Source of the DNA: Opitutales bacterium
GTDB taxonomy: Bacteria; Verrucomicrobiota; Verrucomicrobiia; Opitutales; JABSRG01
Length of the DNA: 64,000 bases
Direction of reading: 5' to 3'
Assembly: GCA_028280845.1 (NCBI GenBank)
Contig: JANQKZ010000009.1
Coordinates: 1-64,000 of the forward strand
Both the position numbers and the translations under genes were made by a program. The notes below the pieces were generated by a model that worked only from the letters and a program-made list of their open reading frames with translations, was not told the origin of the DNA and searched no databases. This document shows positions 6,237 through 27,504 of this stretch, one piece after another. Positions within the stretch are counted from its first letter, which is position 1. Every line of letters begins with the position of its first letter.

Positions 6237-8432
6237 ATGAAGCCGACCTCCCCCCTTTTCGCTCAACGCCCCCGTAACAAACGCCGGGGCTCCGCCATCG
6301 CAATCACCATGATCCTCATGCTGGGAGCCTCTCTCATCATGGGAAGTATTTTACGATTTTCTGCCAATGAACGGCGCCTGAACCAACGTCAGCGGCTCTG
6401 GCTAGAAGCTAAATTCGCCGCCGAATCCCTCGCCGAGTACGGCTTTGCCGATCTTCGCAAACGGTTTGATTCCAATAACGCCTTCCCCGAAGACGGGTTG
6501 ATGCCAACCAACAATCCGGTCTGGCTGCCCACCCGTGTCTACGATATTTTTGATCCGAACACGACCAGTTACTGGTGGAAAACCAATGTCAAACTCCCTG
6601 ATGAAACCGCCTATGAGGCCTTGCGAACCGCTGGCACTTATCCCGCCTGGGGCACCTACGATACGGAAATCATCGCCGGGATTGTCCCCAAAGGAGTGTG
6701 GACTTACATCGACCCAAATATCCCTGGAAACGAGACGGACAAATTGAAAGGTCGTACCGTCTTTGCCCGGGGAATCGCCCTCTATGCCAAGGCAACAGTT
6801 CGCGATCCCGTCTCGGGGAAAGAGGAATCGGCCTACTGTCACCAGATCCTTCAAGTGCGGGACGCCCCCCTCTTCTCCCACGCCATCTTTTACAACATGA
6901 CGATGGAAATTGCCCCAGGTCCTCGCATGGATGTCCGCGGAGCAGTTCATGTAAACGGCGACCTCTATGTACAGGCAGGCAACCAGCTCAACTTTTATGA
7001 CCAGGTAACGATCGCAGGAAAGCTCTATCATGGCCGCCATCCGGACAGCGGAAAAAGTGATTCCTACAATCCGGTCAATTTTATCGACGCCAGCAGCACC
7101 CTCCGTTCCATGGAAAGTGGAGGGACCTGGCTGGACAGCGATGTCGCGGACTTTGTCGACCTTGCCTCGGCCCGCTGGCAGGGCAATTTAATGACCTCTG
7201 GTCACCATGTGGAAAGCAAGCTCCTCCTGGAAATTCCTGACTATGTAGATGATGATCCGTCTACCGCAGCAGTAGACGACGCCTTGAATTACGGTTATGA
7301 AATCATCACTAAGGCAAGGAACCTGAACGACACTAATTATTCAAAAACCCGGGAGGAGCAGAAATTCTCTTACAAGGCAGGGCTCACCATCAAGGTCGAC
7401 ACCACCGGCAATACCGTCTCCTTTGTCACTTACCAGCGAGATGCGAATGGGAATCTTCTCTACGACGCGGGCACCGGTGCGCCGCTGACGACCACACTGA
7501 CCCCAACCAGTACTTTTGCCACGGTCGACCTGTTTTCCAGCTCCGGCTCCGGGTCCTCTGAAACCGTCACCGGTGGCCTCCGGGACAAGCGCCGTGCCAA
7601 TAAAGGCATCGACTTGGTCGAAGTGGACATGGGCGCCCTACGGACTCTGGTTCACAACAATGACGCCACCGAATGGGGAGGTAGCACCGCTCAGAAACCC
7701 GAAAACTGGTGGAATGGTGTCGTCTTCGTCGAATTCCCGGAGACCGGGACGGCTGGCGCGGACGCGATTGCTTCGGCCCCGGATTATTGGGGCGTCAAGC
7801 TGCATAACGGCAAACAAATCCCCAATCCCACTTTTGCTCACAGCGACAGTGTTTACGGCACTAGCCTGGCGACCAACAACGTCATGTATGTGGAAGGTCA
7901 CTACAATGCAGACGGCGACTCCTCCACAGGAACCGCCAACGACCCGGATAACACAGATGTGACCGTCGAGCCGCCTGCCGCTCTTGCTGCCGACGCGATC
8001 AACATCCTGAGTTCGAATTGGGATGACTCTAAAAGCGGGCGACCTAAAGGTGAACGGACCGGCTCCTTCACCGAATTTTCCGCTGCAATCCTGACTGGCC
8101 TGACCCCATCTGGCAAAGGAGGTAGCAATTCTTACTCCGGTGGGACGGAAAACTTCCCCCGCTTCCTCGAACAATGGGGAGCTACCCTGCGCATGCGCGG
8201 TTCCGTCGTCTCCCTTTTTGAAAGTGAAATTGCAACCGAACCCTGGGGCTCGAGTGACGTTTACAGCGCCCCTACTCGGGACTGGGGATTCCACTCCCAA
8301 CTAGCCAAGGGCTACTACCCTCCGGGTACCCCCAACACACGAACCTATCGCAGGTTGGATTATAAGGATATGACCGAAACCGAATTCAATGCGGAAATTG
8401 CCGCGCTGAAAACTTACATTTCTACGCCTTAG
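6237..8432 (+). CDS. Large GspK/PilX-like pseudopilin
   Basis: 731-residue protein with a pilin-like N-terminus: basic NKRRG, then the hydrophobic AIAITMILMLGASLIMGSI. It lacks Glu at +5, a known property of GspK and PilX. The following helix (RQRLWLEAKFAAESLAEYGF, about 50-70) resembles the GspK/PilX region that packs against the other tip subunits. The rest is far longer than usual PilX and is Asn/Asp/Gly/Thr-rich; residues about 225-265 (MDVRGAVHVNGDLYVQ and after) look like a short beta-solenoid reminiscent of bactofilin-type repeats. Gene order I-J-K with the two upstream genes supports a tip role. The large extra domain may bind a surface or substrate; that is inference. Confidence 0.7.
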   Translation: MKPTSPLFAQRPRNKRRGSAIAITMILMLGASLIMGSILRFSANERRLNQRQRLWLEAKFAAESLAEYGFADLRKRFDSNNAFPEDGLMPTNNPVWLPTRVYDIFDPNTTSYWWKTNVKLPDETAYEALRTAGTYPAWGTYDTEIIAGIVPKGVWTYIDPNIPGNETDKLKGRTVFARGIALYAKATVRDPVSGKEESAYCHQILQVRDAPLFSHAIFYNMTMEIAPGPRMDVRGAVHVNGDLYVQAGNQLNFYDQVTIAGKLYHGRHPDSGKSDSYNPVNFIDASSTLRSMESGGTWLDSDVADFVDLASARWQGNLMTSGHHVESKLLLEIPDYVDDDPSTAAVDDALNYGYEIITKARNLNDTNYSKTREEQKFSYKAGLTIKVDTTGNTVSFVTYQRDANGNLLYDAGTGAPLTTTLTPTSTFATVDLFSSSGSGSSETVTGGLRDKRRANKGIDLVEVDMGALRTLVHNNDATEWGGSTAQKPENWWNGVVFVEFPETGTAGADAIASAPDYWGVKLHNGKQIPNPTFAHSDSVYGTSLATNNVMYVEGHYNADGDSSTGTANDPDNTDVTVEPPAALAADAINILSSNWDDSKSGRPKGERTGSFTEFSAAILTGLTPSGKGGSNSYSGGTENFPRFLEQWGATLRMRGSVVSLFESEIATEPWGSSDVYSAPTRDWGFHSQLAKGYYPPGTPNTRTYRRLDYKDMTETEFNAEIAALKTYISTP

Positions 8433-14018: not shown

Positions 14019-16754
14019 ATGAATTCTTCCGAATTCAGACAATCCTTCCTGGACTTTTTTAAGAGCAAGGCGCACGAAATTGTTCCTTCGGCCCCTCTCT
14101 TGCCCACGGCTCCCAACTTGCTGTTTACCAATGCCGGGATGAATCAATTCATCCCCTATTTTCTGGGCGAACGCACCCCCACTGCTACCCGGGTCGCGGA
14201 TACCCAGAAATGCATCCGGGCAGGCGGCAAACACAACGACCTCGAAGACGTCGGATTCGATACCTATCATCACACCTTCTTCGAGATGCTGGGCAATTGG
14301 TCCTTTGGCGATTATTTCAAACAGGAGGCGCTGACGTGGTCGTGGGAGTTGCTGACCCAGGTGTGGAAGATCCCTCCCGAGCGGCTATATGCAACCGTTT
14401 ATAAACCAGATCCCGGTGACCCCGCCGAGGCAGATCTGGAAGCCCTTGAAATCTGGAAATCTATTTTCCATGAAGCGGGCTTGGATCCCGCTGTGCACGT
14501 CATTCAATGCGGCAAAAAGGATAACTTCTGGATGATGGGGGACACCGGACCCTGTGGACCCTGTTCGGAAATCCACATCGATTGTACCGAAAAAGGGGAT
14601 ACCAAAGGCAGCCTTGTCAACCAGGATTCTGCCTGGTGCATGGAGATCTGGAACAATGTGTTCATCCAGTTCAATGCCACGCCGGAAGGAAGCTACGAAC
14701 CCCTCCCCGCGAAGCATGTGGACACCGGCATGGGGTTTGAGCGAGTCGCTGGGGTTGCAGCTACAACTGACCAGTTCACCCGCTTCGGCGAGTTGCCCAG
14801 CAATTACAACAGCGATCTGTTTACTGATATCTTTAAAGTCCTCACACAGATGTCGGGACACCCCTACGGAGCGACCCTGCCAGAGTCCGGACAGGGGTTA
14901 TCAGAAACAGAATTGAAAGACTGCGCCTTTCGGGTGGTCGCCGATCACCTCCGCTGTCTGTCCACCGCCATCGCGGATGGTATTCTTCCCGGCAACGAAG
15001 GGCGTAATTACGTCATCCGCCGGATCCTTCGACGTGCCGTCCTCTGGGCGGAGCGAGCCGGCCTGGAGAAAGGCAGCCTCGCTTCCATCGTCCCCAGTGT
15101 GATTGAGAAGCTCGGGCCCGTCTTCCCTGAGCTCCAGCAACAGCAGGAAATTATCGAAAAAGTCATCGCTTCCGAAGAGAGCGCCTTCAACCGCACGCTC
15201 GATCGCGGGATCCAGCTCCTCGAACGCGCCTTTGAAGATCACCCCGGCGAGATTCCAGGAGAGAAGGCTTTTGAATTATATGATACCTACGGGTTTCCCC
15301 TCGACCTGACTCAGTTGATGGCTCGGGAAAAGGGTCACACTGTCGACGAAGCCGGGTTTGCAGCAGAGATGGAGAAGCAGCGGCAACGCGCACGCGCCGC
15401 GCAGAAAAAGGAAGACATACTCGTTCAGAAAGATGCAGAAGCTGGAACAATCCAAACACAGTTTGTTGGTTTTGAACCAGCCAACCTGACTGACTTTTCC
15501 ACCACCATAACCAAGTCCCTCTCCCTTGAGGAAAAGCACTACCTGGTTTTGGCAGAGACACCGTTCTACGCGGAGATGGGGGGACAGTTAGGAGATACCG
15601 GTACCATCTCCACCGATGACACCTCCTACACGGTAATCGATACGGTGAAGGACAGCTCCGGTCAAATCCTGCATCAGGTAAAAGAGTCCCTCGATGCTGC
15701 CTCCCTCGACGGAACCGCGGTCACGGTGAGTGTCGACGTGGTCCGCCGACAGGCCATTCAACGCAACCATACTGCGACCCACATCCTCAACTGGGCCTTG
15801 AGGGAGGTGCTGGGCAACCACATTCGACAGGCAGGATCCCTCGTCGCCCCGGAGTATCTCCGATTTGATTTTTCCCACTTTGAGGCCGTAACGTCCGAGC
15901 AACTGGCCACGATCGAAGCCATGGTCAATGAACGGATCATCCGGAATGATGCCGTCGCCTGGTATGAGATTCCCTATGATCAGAAACCGGATGATGTCGT
16001 GGCTGTCTTTGGTGAAAAATACGGCGATGAGGTGCGCGTGGTCGATATCGGGGCCGAGGCAGATGTTTCAACGAACTATCGCCTCATGCATCGGGCGTCT
16101 CCTGGCTATTCAGCAGAGCTTTGTGGAGGAACCCATGTCCTCGCCACCGGAGAAATCGGTTCGCTGAAAATCGTCTCCGAGTCCTCGATCTCCGCGGGCA
16201 CGCGTAGAATTGAAGCGGTTGTCGGAGCTCCGGCTTTTAACCTGTTTCAACGGGATCACAACCAGATTGTCCGTCTTGGCCAACTCCTCTCCTGCCCTCC
16301 TGATGAAGTAGAAACCCGACTCCAGAGCACCTTGAAGGATAAGGCCGACCTCGAAAAAAGACTCAAAGCCAGCGAACAGAAGGGCGTGGCCGCCCTCGCC
16401 GGTGATTTGAAAAATAACGCCATCTCCGGCGGAGACCTGTCATGGGTTGTGGAAGTGGTCAAAGTGTCCAGTCCAAATGACTTGCGTGGGCTCGGTGCCC
16501 AGGTCCAGAAATCTGTTGGGCCCGGTGTGGTCATTCTGGGCGCTACCTTCGGAGACAAGGTAACCCTGGTCGCCCTGTGTACCAGCGAGGCTAATGCCGC
16601 CGGGATCCAGGCCGGGCAGCTGATTCGCGACCTCACCTCAAAGCTTGATGGAAAAGGCGGCGGCAAACCTGACTTTGCCATGGGCGGAGGCAAGGCCGTC
16701 GATAAACTACCGGAAGTTCTCCGCCAGTACAAGAAATCCATCTCCTCTTCGTGA
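14019..16754 (+). CDS. alaS: Alanyl-tRNA synthetase
   Basis: Charges and proofreads tRNA-Ala. The start at 14019 gives MNSSEFRQSFLDFF, the usual AlaS N-terminus; 28 upstream in-frame codons have no homology and hold a repeated leader motif. Class II motif 1 (LLFTNAGMNQF), motif 3 (GRNYVIRRILRRA), the editing-site HTATHILN with its zinc His, the CGGTHV element and the C-terminal DHHA1 region ending in GGGKPDFAMGGG are all visible. 911 residues, a normal length. It ends in front of yhbY. Confidence 0.97.
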   Translation: MNSSEFRQSFLDFFKSKAHEIVPSAPLLPTAPNLLFTNAGMNQFIPYFLGERTPTATRVADTQKCIRAGGKHNDLEDVGFDTYHHTFFEMLGNWSFGDYFKQEALTWSWELLTQVWKIPPERLYATVYKPDPGDPAEADLEALEIWKSIFHEAGLDPAVHVIQCGKKDNFWMMGDTGPCGPCSEIHIDCTEKGDTKGSLVNQDSAWCMEIWNNVFIQFNATPEGSYEPLPAKHVDTGMGFERVAGVAATTDQFTRFGELPSNYNSDLFTDIFKVLTQMSGHPYGATLPESGQGLSETELKDCAFRVVADHLRCLSTAIADGILPGNEGRNYVIRRILRRAVLWAERAGLEKGSLASIVPSVIEKLGPVFPELQQQQEIIEKVIASEESAFNRTLDRGIQLLERAFEDHPGEIPGEKAFELYDTYGFPLDLTQLMAREKGHTVDEAGFAAEMEKQRQRARAAQKKEDILVQKDAEAGTIQTQFVGFEPANLTDFSTTITKSLSLEEKHYLVLAETPFYAEMGGQLGDTGTISTDDTSYTVIDTVKDSSGQILHQVKESLDAASLDGTAVTVSVDVVRRQAIQRNHTATHILNWALREVLGNHIRQAGSLVAPEYLRFDFSHFEAVTSEQLATIEAMVNERIIRNDAVAWYEIPYDQKPDDVVAVFGEKYGDEVRVVDIGAEADVSTNYRLMHRASPGYSAELCGGTHVLATGEIGSLKIVSESSISAGTRRIEAVVGAPAFNLFQRDHNQIVRLGQLLSCPPDEVETRLQSTLKDKADLEKRLKASEQKGVAALAGDLKNNAISGGDLSWVVEVVKVSSPNDLRGLGAQVQKSVGPGVVILGATFGDKVTLVALCTSEANAAGIQAGQLIRDLTSKLDGKGGGKPDFAMGGGKAVDKLPEVLRQYKKSISSS

Positions 16755-25595: not shown

Positions 25596-26057
25596 TCAAG
25601 CATCATTCAACTGCCGCAGCCCTTCATAAACCGCGATGCCGGCGGCAGTGGATAAATTCAGTGAACGCAGGGTTGAGTTGAACTGCGGCAAGGTCAACCG
25701 GCGTTCCCCGGCCCAGGCATGGATCGCCTCGGGCACCCCATGCCCTTCATTCCCAAACAGGAACCCATCCCCATCTTGAAAAGCGACCTCCCAATACACC
25801 CGTTTGGCTTTGGTCGTGAAAAGGAAGATCTCTCCATCAGGCCTCACCGGGCTTTCCAAAAACGCCTCAAAGGACGCATGCTCATGCAGGTCGAGTGAGT
25901 ACCAGTAATCCATCCCACTCCGGCGCAAATGCTTATCGGTAATCGTAAACCCAAGTGGATGAATCAGGTGAAGCCGGCACTGGGTTATGGCACACATTCT
26001 CCCGATATTCCCAGTATTCTGAGGAATCTCAGGCCGATATAAAATAACATGAAACAT
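25596..26057 (-). CDS. trmL: tRNA (cytidine/uridine-34 2'-O)-methyltransferase
   Basis: SPOUT-fold 2'-O-methyltransferase acting on the wobble position of tRNA-Leu. The start at 26057 (MFHVILYRPEIPQNTGNIGR) is the family start; a further in-frame ATG 27 bases upstream would run into the left repeat of the GxxExxY cassette. Knot motifs LFGNEGHGVPE and LNLSTAAGIAVYEGLRQL near the C-terminus are clear. 153 residues. The start lies 11 bases from the left inverted repeat of the cassette, so its leader may have been replaced by inserted DNA. Confidence 0.93.
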   Translation of the reverse strand: MFHVILYRPEIPQNTGNIGRMCAITQCRLHLIHPLGFTITDKHLRRSGMDYWYSLDLHEHASFEAFLESPVRPDGEIFLFTTKAKRVYWEVAFQDGDGFLFGNEGHGVPEAIHAWAGERRLTLPQFNSTLRSLNLSTAAGIAVYEGLRQLNDA

Positions 26058-26067
26058 TGGGTGATTA

Positions 26068-26085
26068 TAGCCGCAAAAAGGCACA
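26068..26085 (+). repeat. Left inverted repeat of GxxExxY cassette
   Basis: TAGCCGCAAAAAGGCACA. Its reverse complement matches the right repeat at 17 of 18 positions. Confidence 0.75.
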
Positions 26086-26177
26086 AGGGGCGCAAAGACA
26101 ATGGGTTAGGCTGGGATATTATGACAGACCGCTATAGGTTTAAACGGAACCAATACAAAGCAAAAATAGGAGGAGTT

Positions 26178-26563
26178 ATGAAAGACTACGTATTTACATT
26201 AGTGGACGCTATTCGGGAAACCAGTTTTGCCATCCATCGCTATCACCGTCATGGGCCCTTGGAAAAAGCCTACGAAAATGCATGATACCATCGACTGAGG
26301 AAACAGGATTACTTTGTCGAACAACAAAAACCACCGGAGGTATTCGACGAAGACGGAACTCGAATCGGAGAATAGCATGCGGATCTATTTGTCGAAAACA
26401 CTCTGATTATCGAACTAAAAACAGTTCACACCCTGGCCAACGATCACTTTGCCCAAATCTTAGGTTATTGAGATCCGCGAAGAAAGAACACGGCCTTCTC
26501 ATCAATTTTAGTGCTCCAAAATTCCAACTACGCAAAGTCGCCCTGTCCGACCGGCATTATTGA
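26178..26563 (+). pseudogene. GxxExxY protein pseudogene
   Basis: Starts at an ATG with a near-perfect Shine-Dalgarno (AGGAGG at 26169-26174). The first 35 residues read normally to GPLEKAYENA, the name-giving motif. Then a TGA at 26283-26285 interrupts, the frame stays open to a second stop (TAG at 26373-26375, in place of Tyr in the conserved GEYHADL), and after LGY a one-base deletion near 26468 (TATTGAGAT instead of a codon more) throws the tail into another frame, where it reads LRSAKKEHGLLINF and ends at 26563. Reconstructed, the protein is about 128 residues with the family blocks IGEYHADLFVENTLIIELK and HFAQILGYL. Two nonsense mutations plus a frameshift mean it is dead. Confidence 0.88.
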
Positions 26564-26568
26564 GATTC

Positions 26569-26586
26569 TGCGCCTTTTTGCGGCTA
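26569..26586 (-). repeat. Right inverted repeat of GxxExxY cassette
   Basis: Plus strand TGCGCCTTTTTGCGGCTA; on the minus strand it reads TAGCCGCAAAAAGGCGCA, differing from the left copy at one base. Confidence 0.75.
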
Positions 26587-26592
26587 CCTTAA

Positions 26593-27504
26593 CTACCCGG
26601 ACTGCTGCACCCCGTCGTTGTCGACTTCGAGTTTAAAGACCCGGCTACCGATCCCCTGGGTCTCGAATACCGCCTGCATCGCAGCCGCTACTTCGTCAGC
26701 CTGTTCACTTGGACTTACACAAAGCACGGAGGATCCACTGCCAGACAACCACCCCGTGTAGGCGCCCGAAGCGATTCCCGCATCAATCGCTTCTTTCGAA
26801 AAGGGGTTCAACTTGGCCCGGTAAGGCGTGTGCACATAGTCCGTCACTGCTTTCCCCAGGAGATCATACTGGCGAGTCGCAAAGATAGAGACAATCGAAG
26901 CTACACTATTAATACTGCGTATTACATCATGAAAGGGAAGCTCATCCGGTAGTATGTCGCGGGCATCCGAGGTCAGCACTCGAGTTTCGGGGCTGACTAC
27001 CACAAAACGCACCTCCGGGCCTACCTCATGGCGCAGGGTGTATAGATATTGACCTGTTTCCGGGTCGGTTCGAGCGACACAAAACCCTCCCTGAATGAGT
27101 GGGCAGCTGTTATCCGGGGAGTGGTCCAGCCCACACACCAGTCGGGTCAGCTGCTCCCGGTCCAGGGGAACTCCATGAATCAGGTTCAACCCGGCCGTCA
27201 CTCCCGCGCGCAAGGTGGCGCTCGACCCCAATCCGCGTGCAATGGGGATTTCGCCCCAGATATCGAAGGCAAGCCCGTGTTCGGCCACCCCGGTCGCCTG
27301 GTGAAAGGCGGCCTGAGCTTGCTGCACCATGTCAAACGAGGACTCCGGCATTTCATCCTGCCCCGCATAGATTACCTCAGGCTCATCGATTGCCTGAACC
27401 CGCACAAAGTTGTAGAGCGATAAGGCGATACCCAGGGCATCAAAACCGGGGCCACAATTCGAGGTACTCGCAGGAGTCTGGACGGTTACGGGAGCGTCAA
27501 TCAT
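26593..27504 (-). CDS. thrB: Homoserine kinase
   Basis: Phosphorylates homoserine in threonine synthesis. GHMP kinase, 303 residues: N-terminal ASTSNCGPGFDALGIAL, the phosphate loop PIARGLGSSATLRAG at about 91-105, and the C-terminal GAYTGWLSGSGSSVLCV. The stop lies six bases from the right repeat of the GxxExxY cassette. It follows smpB after 12 bases on the same strand. thrC and thrA are not here. Confidence 0.95.
   Translation of the reverse strand: MIDAPVTVQTPASTSNCGPGFDALGIALSLYNFVRVQAIDEPEVIYAGQDEMPESSFDMVQQAQAAFHQATGVAEHGLAFDIWGEIPIARGLGSSATLRAGVTAGLNLIHGVPLDREQLTRLVCGLDHSPDNSCPLIQGGFCVARTDPETGQYLYTLRHEVGPEVRFVVVSPETRVLTSDARDILPDELPFHDVIRSINSVASIVSIFATRQYDLLGKAVTDYVHTPYRAKLNPFSKEAIDAGIASGAYTGWLSGSGSSVLCVSPSEQADEVAAAMQAVFETQGIGSRVFKLEVDNDGVQQSG

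Follow-up and report, generated by a model that had tools for sequence, protein, structure and literature searches.

Among the described systems closest to the element reported here are the intervening sequences (IVSs) of 23S rRNA genes, which encode the four-helix protein S23p (PF05635), measure ~430-500 nt, carry one ORF between inverted ends and have a patchy distribution. The Coxiella IVS is 428 nt long, with one ORF and a 28-bp terminal stem, and it was earlier suggested that IVSs are mobile elements whose ORF serves mobility (PMC4990558). The Rpn / YhgA-like nucleases (PF04754) are encoded by PD-(D/E)XK genes, also patchily distributed and independently inserted at an operon junction: rpnC entered panC-panD by two independent insertions, RpnA raises RecA-independent recombination, and a nuclease-stimulated, RecA-independent joining was proposed (PMC5350276). 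DDE insertion sequences and MITEs are known for their inverted ends and gene-less derivatives. Finally, paired arrays lying on opposite strands in Geobacter metallireducens, one class of which has three tandem TCTCCGTS[Y] units, were interpreted in 2009 as putative sites of the global regulators IHF/HU (PMC2700814).

The GxxExxY family (TIGR04256/PF13366), of the PD-(D/E)XK superfamily, is known as a protein. In the literature searched, which left subscription journals and some preprints uncovered, we found no description of GxxExxY, of PF13366 or of the unit sequences reported below as mobile elements, nor of a cassette formed by them.

The window analysed here is a stretch of 64,000 nucleotides from an Opitutales bacterium. 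Within it, positions 26068-26586 form an element of ~0.5 kb, in which a GxxExxY pseudogene is placed between inverted ends. The features of the locus, in window coordinates, are the following:

25596-26057, minus strand: trmL, host gene, operon-downstream of the element (ORF and relatives)
26068-26085, plus strand: left inverted arm TAGCCGCAAAAAGGCACA, outer end of the element (sequence and inverted-pair search)
26072-26097, plus strand: left tandem unit array CGCAAAA / CACAAGG / CGCAAAG, with unit starts at 26072, 26082 and 26091 and spacings of 10 and 9 (direct reading)
26168-26173, plus strand: AGGAGG, ribosome binding site of the pseudogene (direct reading)
26178-26563, plus strand: GxxExxY pseudogene, TIGR04256 / PF13366 PDDEXK_3 (direct reading and profile matches)
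26569-26586, minus strand: right inverted arm TGCGCCTTTTTGCGGCTA, with the mirror array CGCAAAA / CGCAGAA and a decayed third unit (sequence and inverted-pair search)
26593-27504, minus strand: thrB, host gene, operon-upstream of the element, with its stop 6 nt from the element (ORF and relatives)

The two arms are 18 nt long, complementary at 17/18 positions and separated by 483 nt, and they are the sole inverted pair of at least 14 nt within that kilobase. The pseudogene begins with an ATG at 26178 and is interrupted by a TGA at 26283, a TAG at 26373 and a frame change near 26466-26471. An earlier note on this DNA had described the inverted ends, the ribosome binding site and the three disabling mutations, and direct reading confirmed them all; it also confirmed that the ends lie 10 nt from the start codon of trmL and 6 nt from the stop of thrB, the gap being wholly filled. 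The 18-bp repeat reported in the same note held as an inverted pair and not as a single 18-mer motif, each arm being the outer part of a tandem array. The window copy lacks the full-length open reading frame of the GxxExxY family (TIGR04256); with two stops and a frameshift, it is therefore a pseudogene of this family. The remnant with stops read as X matched TIGR04256 with E=9e-27 and 93.7 bits (curated cut-off 35), and a PF13366 search of the genome gave the window copy 60.5 bits, with "2 TGA, 1 TAG" inside.

As in 23S rRNA IVSs, terminal inverted repeats surround one ORF; unlike them, the window element is placed between thrB and trmL and not in an rRNA gene, its ORF belongs to the TIGR04256 nucleases and not to S23p/PF05635, and its class shows no RNA-pairing signature (negative G.U test, see below). 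The Rpn nucleases belong to another Pfam family, and unit-array ends are not mentioned in the part of the Rpn paper considered (PMC5350276). In contrast to DDE insertion sequences and MITEs, we found neither a DDE gene nor target duplication, and the ends are arrays of short units that vary from copy to copy. The G. metallireducens sequence is the reverse complement of CACGGAGA units, and such pairs may represent the termini of elements or what is left of them.

Three genomes from the order of the host have thrB and trmL side by side without any insert: G030 has a spacer of 20 nt past the thrB stop and G031 one of ~9 nt, and in G022 the spacer is short or gives way to an overlap. Therefore, the element occupies an operon junction that is closed in those relatives, and the comparison of this gap proposed in the earlier note came out in favour of an insertion. 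The window pseudogene is antisense to the thrB-trmL operon, which is the minority arrangement among the elements surveyed.

The PF13366 search of the 4.8-Mb host genome identified seven GxxExxY loci, four open and three decayed, so that full-length copies, for which the note had advised a search, do exist. Six of the seven are tightly flanked by clear inverted arms, the sequence of which differs in each copy (for example TTCACCACGGAGATCACAGAGGACACAGAGT, ACTGACGATAACGACGAT and AAACTACGAAGTTCGCAAAAAAACACGAAA); L007, the remaining one, is decayed, with an inverted score at background. Searching the window arm across the genome with up to two mismatches retrieved no other paired element. Single copies of its motif, with no obvious partner, were observed at G000:C40:23776 (L011) and G000:C41:26808 (L014), and are maybe solo remnants. 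The idea of one 18-bp repeat common to all copies was thus rejected, the arms being specific to each copy: what the copies share is the architecture. A transposase recognising the ends, for which the note had also advised looking, was not found.

The same design recurs in many bacterial phyla and in some archaea. In some 190 copies, both ends consist of inverted arrays, typically of three tandem ~7-nt units ~9 bp apart. A set of 80 loci, the top matches to one subfamily, comes from many phyla (Verrucomicrobiota, Planctomycetota, Bacteroidota, Chloroflexota, Acidobacteriota, Cyanobacteria, Proteobacteria, Methanosarcinales and others). In this set, the best flank-to-flank inverted match had a median score of 19, compared to 8.5 in same-locus controls, and 80% of the loci exceeded the 99th percentile of those controls. 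Multi-copy genomes in the phylum of the host provided 78 further loci; of these, 86% were above the same score, versus 4.5% of swapped-arm controls. Considering the 142 elements with a clear inverted pair, at least two tandem 7-mer spacings were present in 132, against 7/142 column-shuffled controls, and the unit spacings peak at 8, 9 and 10. Furthermore, the two arms have an identical spacing series in 83/95 cases (19% for mismatched pairs). Two loci, L040 and L056, carry a whole palindrome, with arrays in both orientations, at each end around the GxxExxY gene, as if an element were inside or beside a gene-less one. At five others (L037, at G013:C22:261358, L258, L259, L269 and L278) the GxxExxY domain is part of open frames of ~330-530 aa, possibly read-through fusions with a neighbour gene.

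The nuclease gene and the ends are inherited as a set. When the unit class (..AG or ..AT) is mapped on a tree of 167 proteins, two changes are counted, while shuffled assignments gave a mean of 31.6 changes and a minimum of 25. Such a result agrees with co-inheritance in a single cassette. The units remain readable even where the proteins have dropped to 35-50% identity, which suggests that the protein reads the units; simple inheritance of the cassette in one piece would also produce the concordance of unit and protein.

Two pairs of copies give information on the moving unit. L023 and L035, 2.3 kb apart in one genome, share 465 bp at 95.5% identity with unrelated flanks (hemD|aminotransferase and trpF|trpB), and the shared segment begins ~10 nt outside the first unit. 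At both sites (L023:1440-1479 and L035:1440-1479), the hemD and trpF frames enter the left arm and end at a TAA in the third unit, a read-in that adds the tail GIDSRK(D/E)RKER. The second pair, L300 (rnfA|rnfB, G319) and L345 (operon junction, G316), has 88% identity over 500 bp, and the bounds of homology are the outer arm ends, from AACCACCC to GGGTGGT. Congeners of these two genomes have empty junctions of 18 and 15 nt. The occupied junctions hold an extra ~130-170 nt of non-coding sequence that is absent from the empty ones, and therefore the insertion histories of L300 and L345 are not a single clean step. The two pairs show that the unit that moves is the segment from arm to arm.

In 70 elements of the wider set, target-site duplication did not clearly exceed the control, whatever the offset and length. 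No copy was caught in the act of moving; since copies within a genome are mostly dissimilar and only two recent pairs were found among some 250 loci, activity is low. Phage carriage was rejected, one query protein having 0 matches in 50,697 phage records; plasmid records gave 8/72,556.

The preferred landing place is the 3' end of operon genes, with the nuclease gene mostly co-oriented. Among 92 elements (simple ORF calls), 59 are placed between two co-directional genes and have their nuclease gene in the same orientation, and in 42 of these the leftover gap is ~30 nt or less; the nuclease gene is antisense to a co-directional pair in 10/92. In 42% of 131 elements the left outer end has the end of a same-strand gene within 12 nt, versus 4% of random points; for comparison, an opposite-strand gene ends at the right outer end in 14%. 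The stop codon of the upstream frame falls inside the arm in 38/147, leaving tails such as SRKDRKER. This 3'-end preference may result from selection as well as from targeting.

Some junctions are occupied repeatedly, and by different things. In Bacteroidaceae, the mutA-mutB spacers examined are mostly 5-35 nt, and other mutA-mutB junctions are occupied by GxxExxY cassettes, by a gene-less form of 96 nt, by other palindromes or by a cassette carrying a PF05635 gene. At L174 and L176, the small palindromes found at this junction are made of CCCTCCC units and GTGAATAGTGAAAAGTGAAAA units. The hemN-cyclase junction of Flavobacterium contains gene-bearing and gene-less forms, with two unit classes; larger inserts of ~1.2 and 1.0 kb, with other content, are present there at L192 and L201. 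In the host genome, gene-less unit-array palindromes occur at successive junctions of a nucleotide-sugar operon (G000:C13:14756-14826 and 15900-16043; L433:6255-6329 and 7395-7550), where a glycosyltransferase frame stops within one palindrome arm.

The ends described above are also found around another gene family. Inverted ends that exceed the 95th percentile of controls are present in 92% of 25 Bacteroidaceae PF05635 (23S_rRNA_IVP) genes, and TTGAAGG and CATTGACC are examples of their units. Genes of this family outside rRNA (L394-L419; L172:715-1098 and L173:697-1074) were seen between inverted arrays of tandem ~8-nt units. Therefore, the nuclease is not the sole possible partner of this architecture, and mobilisation may depend on a host process common to both families.

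Regarding the GxxExxY protein, PF13366 alone reached the cut-off in the 13 proteins scanned, and PF04754 was not among the matches. The search for a sequence-level match to a solved structure returned nothing meaningful. The AlphaFold2 model has a pLDDT of 93, and its closest solved structure by fold is Cas4 SSO0001 (Z=9.9), followed by PD-(D/E)XK nucleases including Hjc and lambda exonuclease; fold matches below Z 8 maybe reflect the common fold alone. Like these enzymes, the model has the catalytic fold, with ExK and QxxxY; the differences are that the protein is minimal (120-130 aa) and that no Cas genes were noted beside the copies examined. Five residues (E25, Y28, D65, K77 and Q89) are invariant in 13 diverse members, compatible with an active nuclease. 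The protein is thus modelled as a minimal PD-(D/E)XK nuclease of the Cas4/lambda-exonuclease type, in which a separate DNA-reading domain is not visible.

The survey, the matching of the arms, the clade-linked units and the moved pairs together support the cassette idea: the cassette is real, it is decayed in the window, and it is a member of a mobile class. The repeat-bounded cassette that spreads, as the earlier note had supposed, is borne out by the empty window junction and by two near-identical pairs in unrelated flanks. The term "non-autonomous", used in the same place, is unsupported: the sole gene in intact copies is the GxxExxY nuclease, with no DDE transposase, and this nuclease is the obvious candidate mobiliser. 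Our best guess is that it mobilises its own cassette through the unit arrays. We give a probability of roughly 0.6 to the reading of the window feature as a copy, now decayed, of a single-gene mobile element of ~450-550 bp, mobilised by its nuclease in this way. The element is organised as an outer arm, the nuclease gene and the inverted outer arm, each arm typically consisting of three ~7-nt units with a ~9-bp period, repeated inverted at the opposite end. The GxxExxY protein would bind its own arrays and make breaks at them, and host repair could then copy or join the cassette into a new junction, as proposed for Rpn, so that mobilisation would proceed without a DDE transposase.

The alternative that survives best, although unlikely, is an RNA element similar to IVSs: the arms would pair in the transcript, RNase III would cut the stem, and the mRNA would be freed of the element. 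Elements would then survive in operons because they are removed from the mRNA, as 23S rRNA IVSs are from rRNA. The plan is the same as that of the Coxiella IVS (PMC4990558), the elements are mostly inside operons, and the mutA-mutB junction of other genomes holds PF05635 genes with unit-array ends. RNA pairing makes a prediction about mismatches between arms that the data run against. On the gene strand, 179 were of GU type and 224 of AC type (p=0.028, in the direction opposite to RNA pairing), and selection for an RNA stem is therefore unsupported. Moreover, mismatches affect 0.3-3% of the fixed unit letters (C, C, A, G/T), 25% of the variable position 4 and 32-38% of the spacers, a pattern that suits site recognition better than stem pairing. 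Thus, what is conserved in the units is a DNA site more than a pairing stem.

Somewhat less probable still is a homing-type process, in which the nuclease would cleave one particular empty junction (for instance hemN-cyclase or mutA-mutB) and the cassette would be copied into the break by repair, the arms being by-products or a protection of the occupied site. The absence of target duplication agrees with it, as does the double entry of rpnC, a PD-(D/E)XK nuclease gene, into panC-panD (PMC5350276). One junction holds different element families in different species, which would also agree; however, unlike families at one junction would require a separately evolved site specificity. A fixed target is also difficult to reconcile with up to a dozen copies at most in one genome, at unrelated junctions, and with two recent pairs that share little or nothing outside the element.

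We regard as improbable, and as the least likely of these three, that GxxExxY is a useful host or defence gene, comparable to the Rpn toxin-antitoxin/defence nucleases, moved by homologous recombination, with arms that are operators of the gene or of a host regulator. The 2009 reading of the G. metallireducens arrays as putative IHF/HU sites (PMC2700814) and weak PADLOC matches to Cas4 and RTasPDDEXK are in line with it. An operator, however, need not be mirrored with the same spacing series or mark exact mobile ends, pseudogenes and gene-less copies are common, and the non-homologous flanks argue against homologous recombination for both pairs. A chance inverted repeat around an unrelated pseudogene can be dismissed: short two-copy repeats can arise randomly, but the controlled survey, with well over 100 loci of the same architecture, refutes it.

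Returning to the mobile cassette, a broader statement is possible, and we place it somewhat below an even chance: GxxExxY cassettes may be a widespread, undescribed class of autonomous elements, among the smallest known, mobilised by a lone Cas4-like nuclease that would read the short-unit arrays at either end, with unit sequence and protein co-evolving and a sister class that carries the IVS protein between ends of the same kind. The family, which many environmental genomes annotate just as "GxxExxY protein", gains a genetic context and a testable role. For short repeat arrays at operon junctions, read as regulator sites in at least one genome paper, there is an alternative interpretation: they may be the termini, or the remnants, of one-gene elements. 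The connection with the 23S rRNA IVS protein opens a way to address a long-standing question, the spread of IVSs. Should the nuclease be what mobilises the cassette, the result would be a mobility system of ~450 bp that works without a DDE enzyme.
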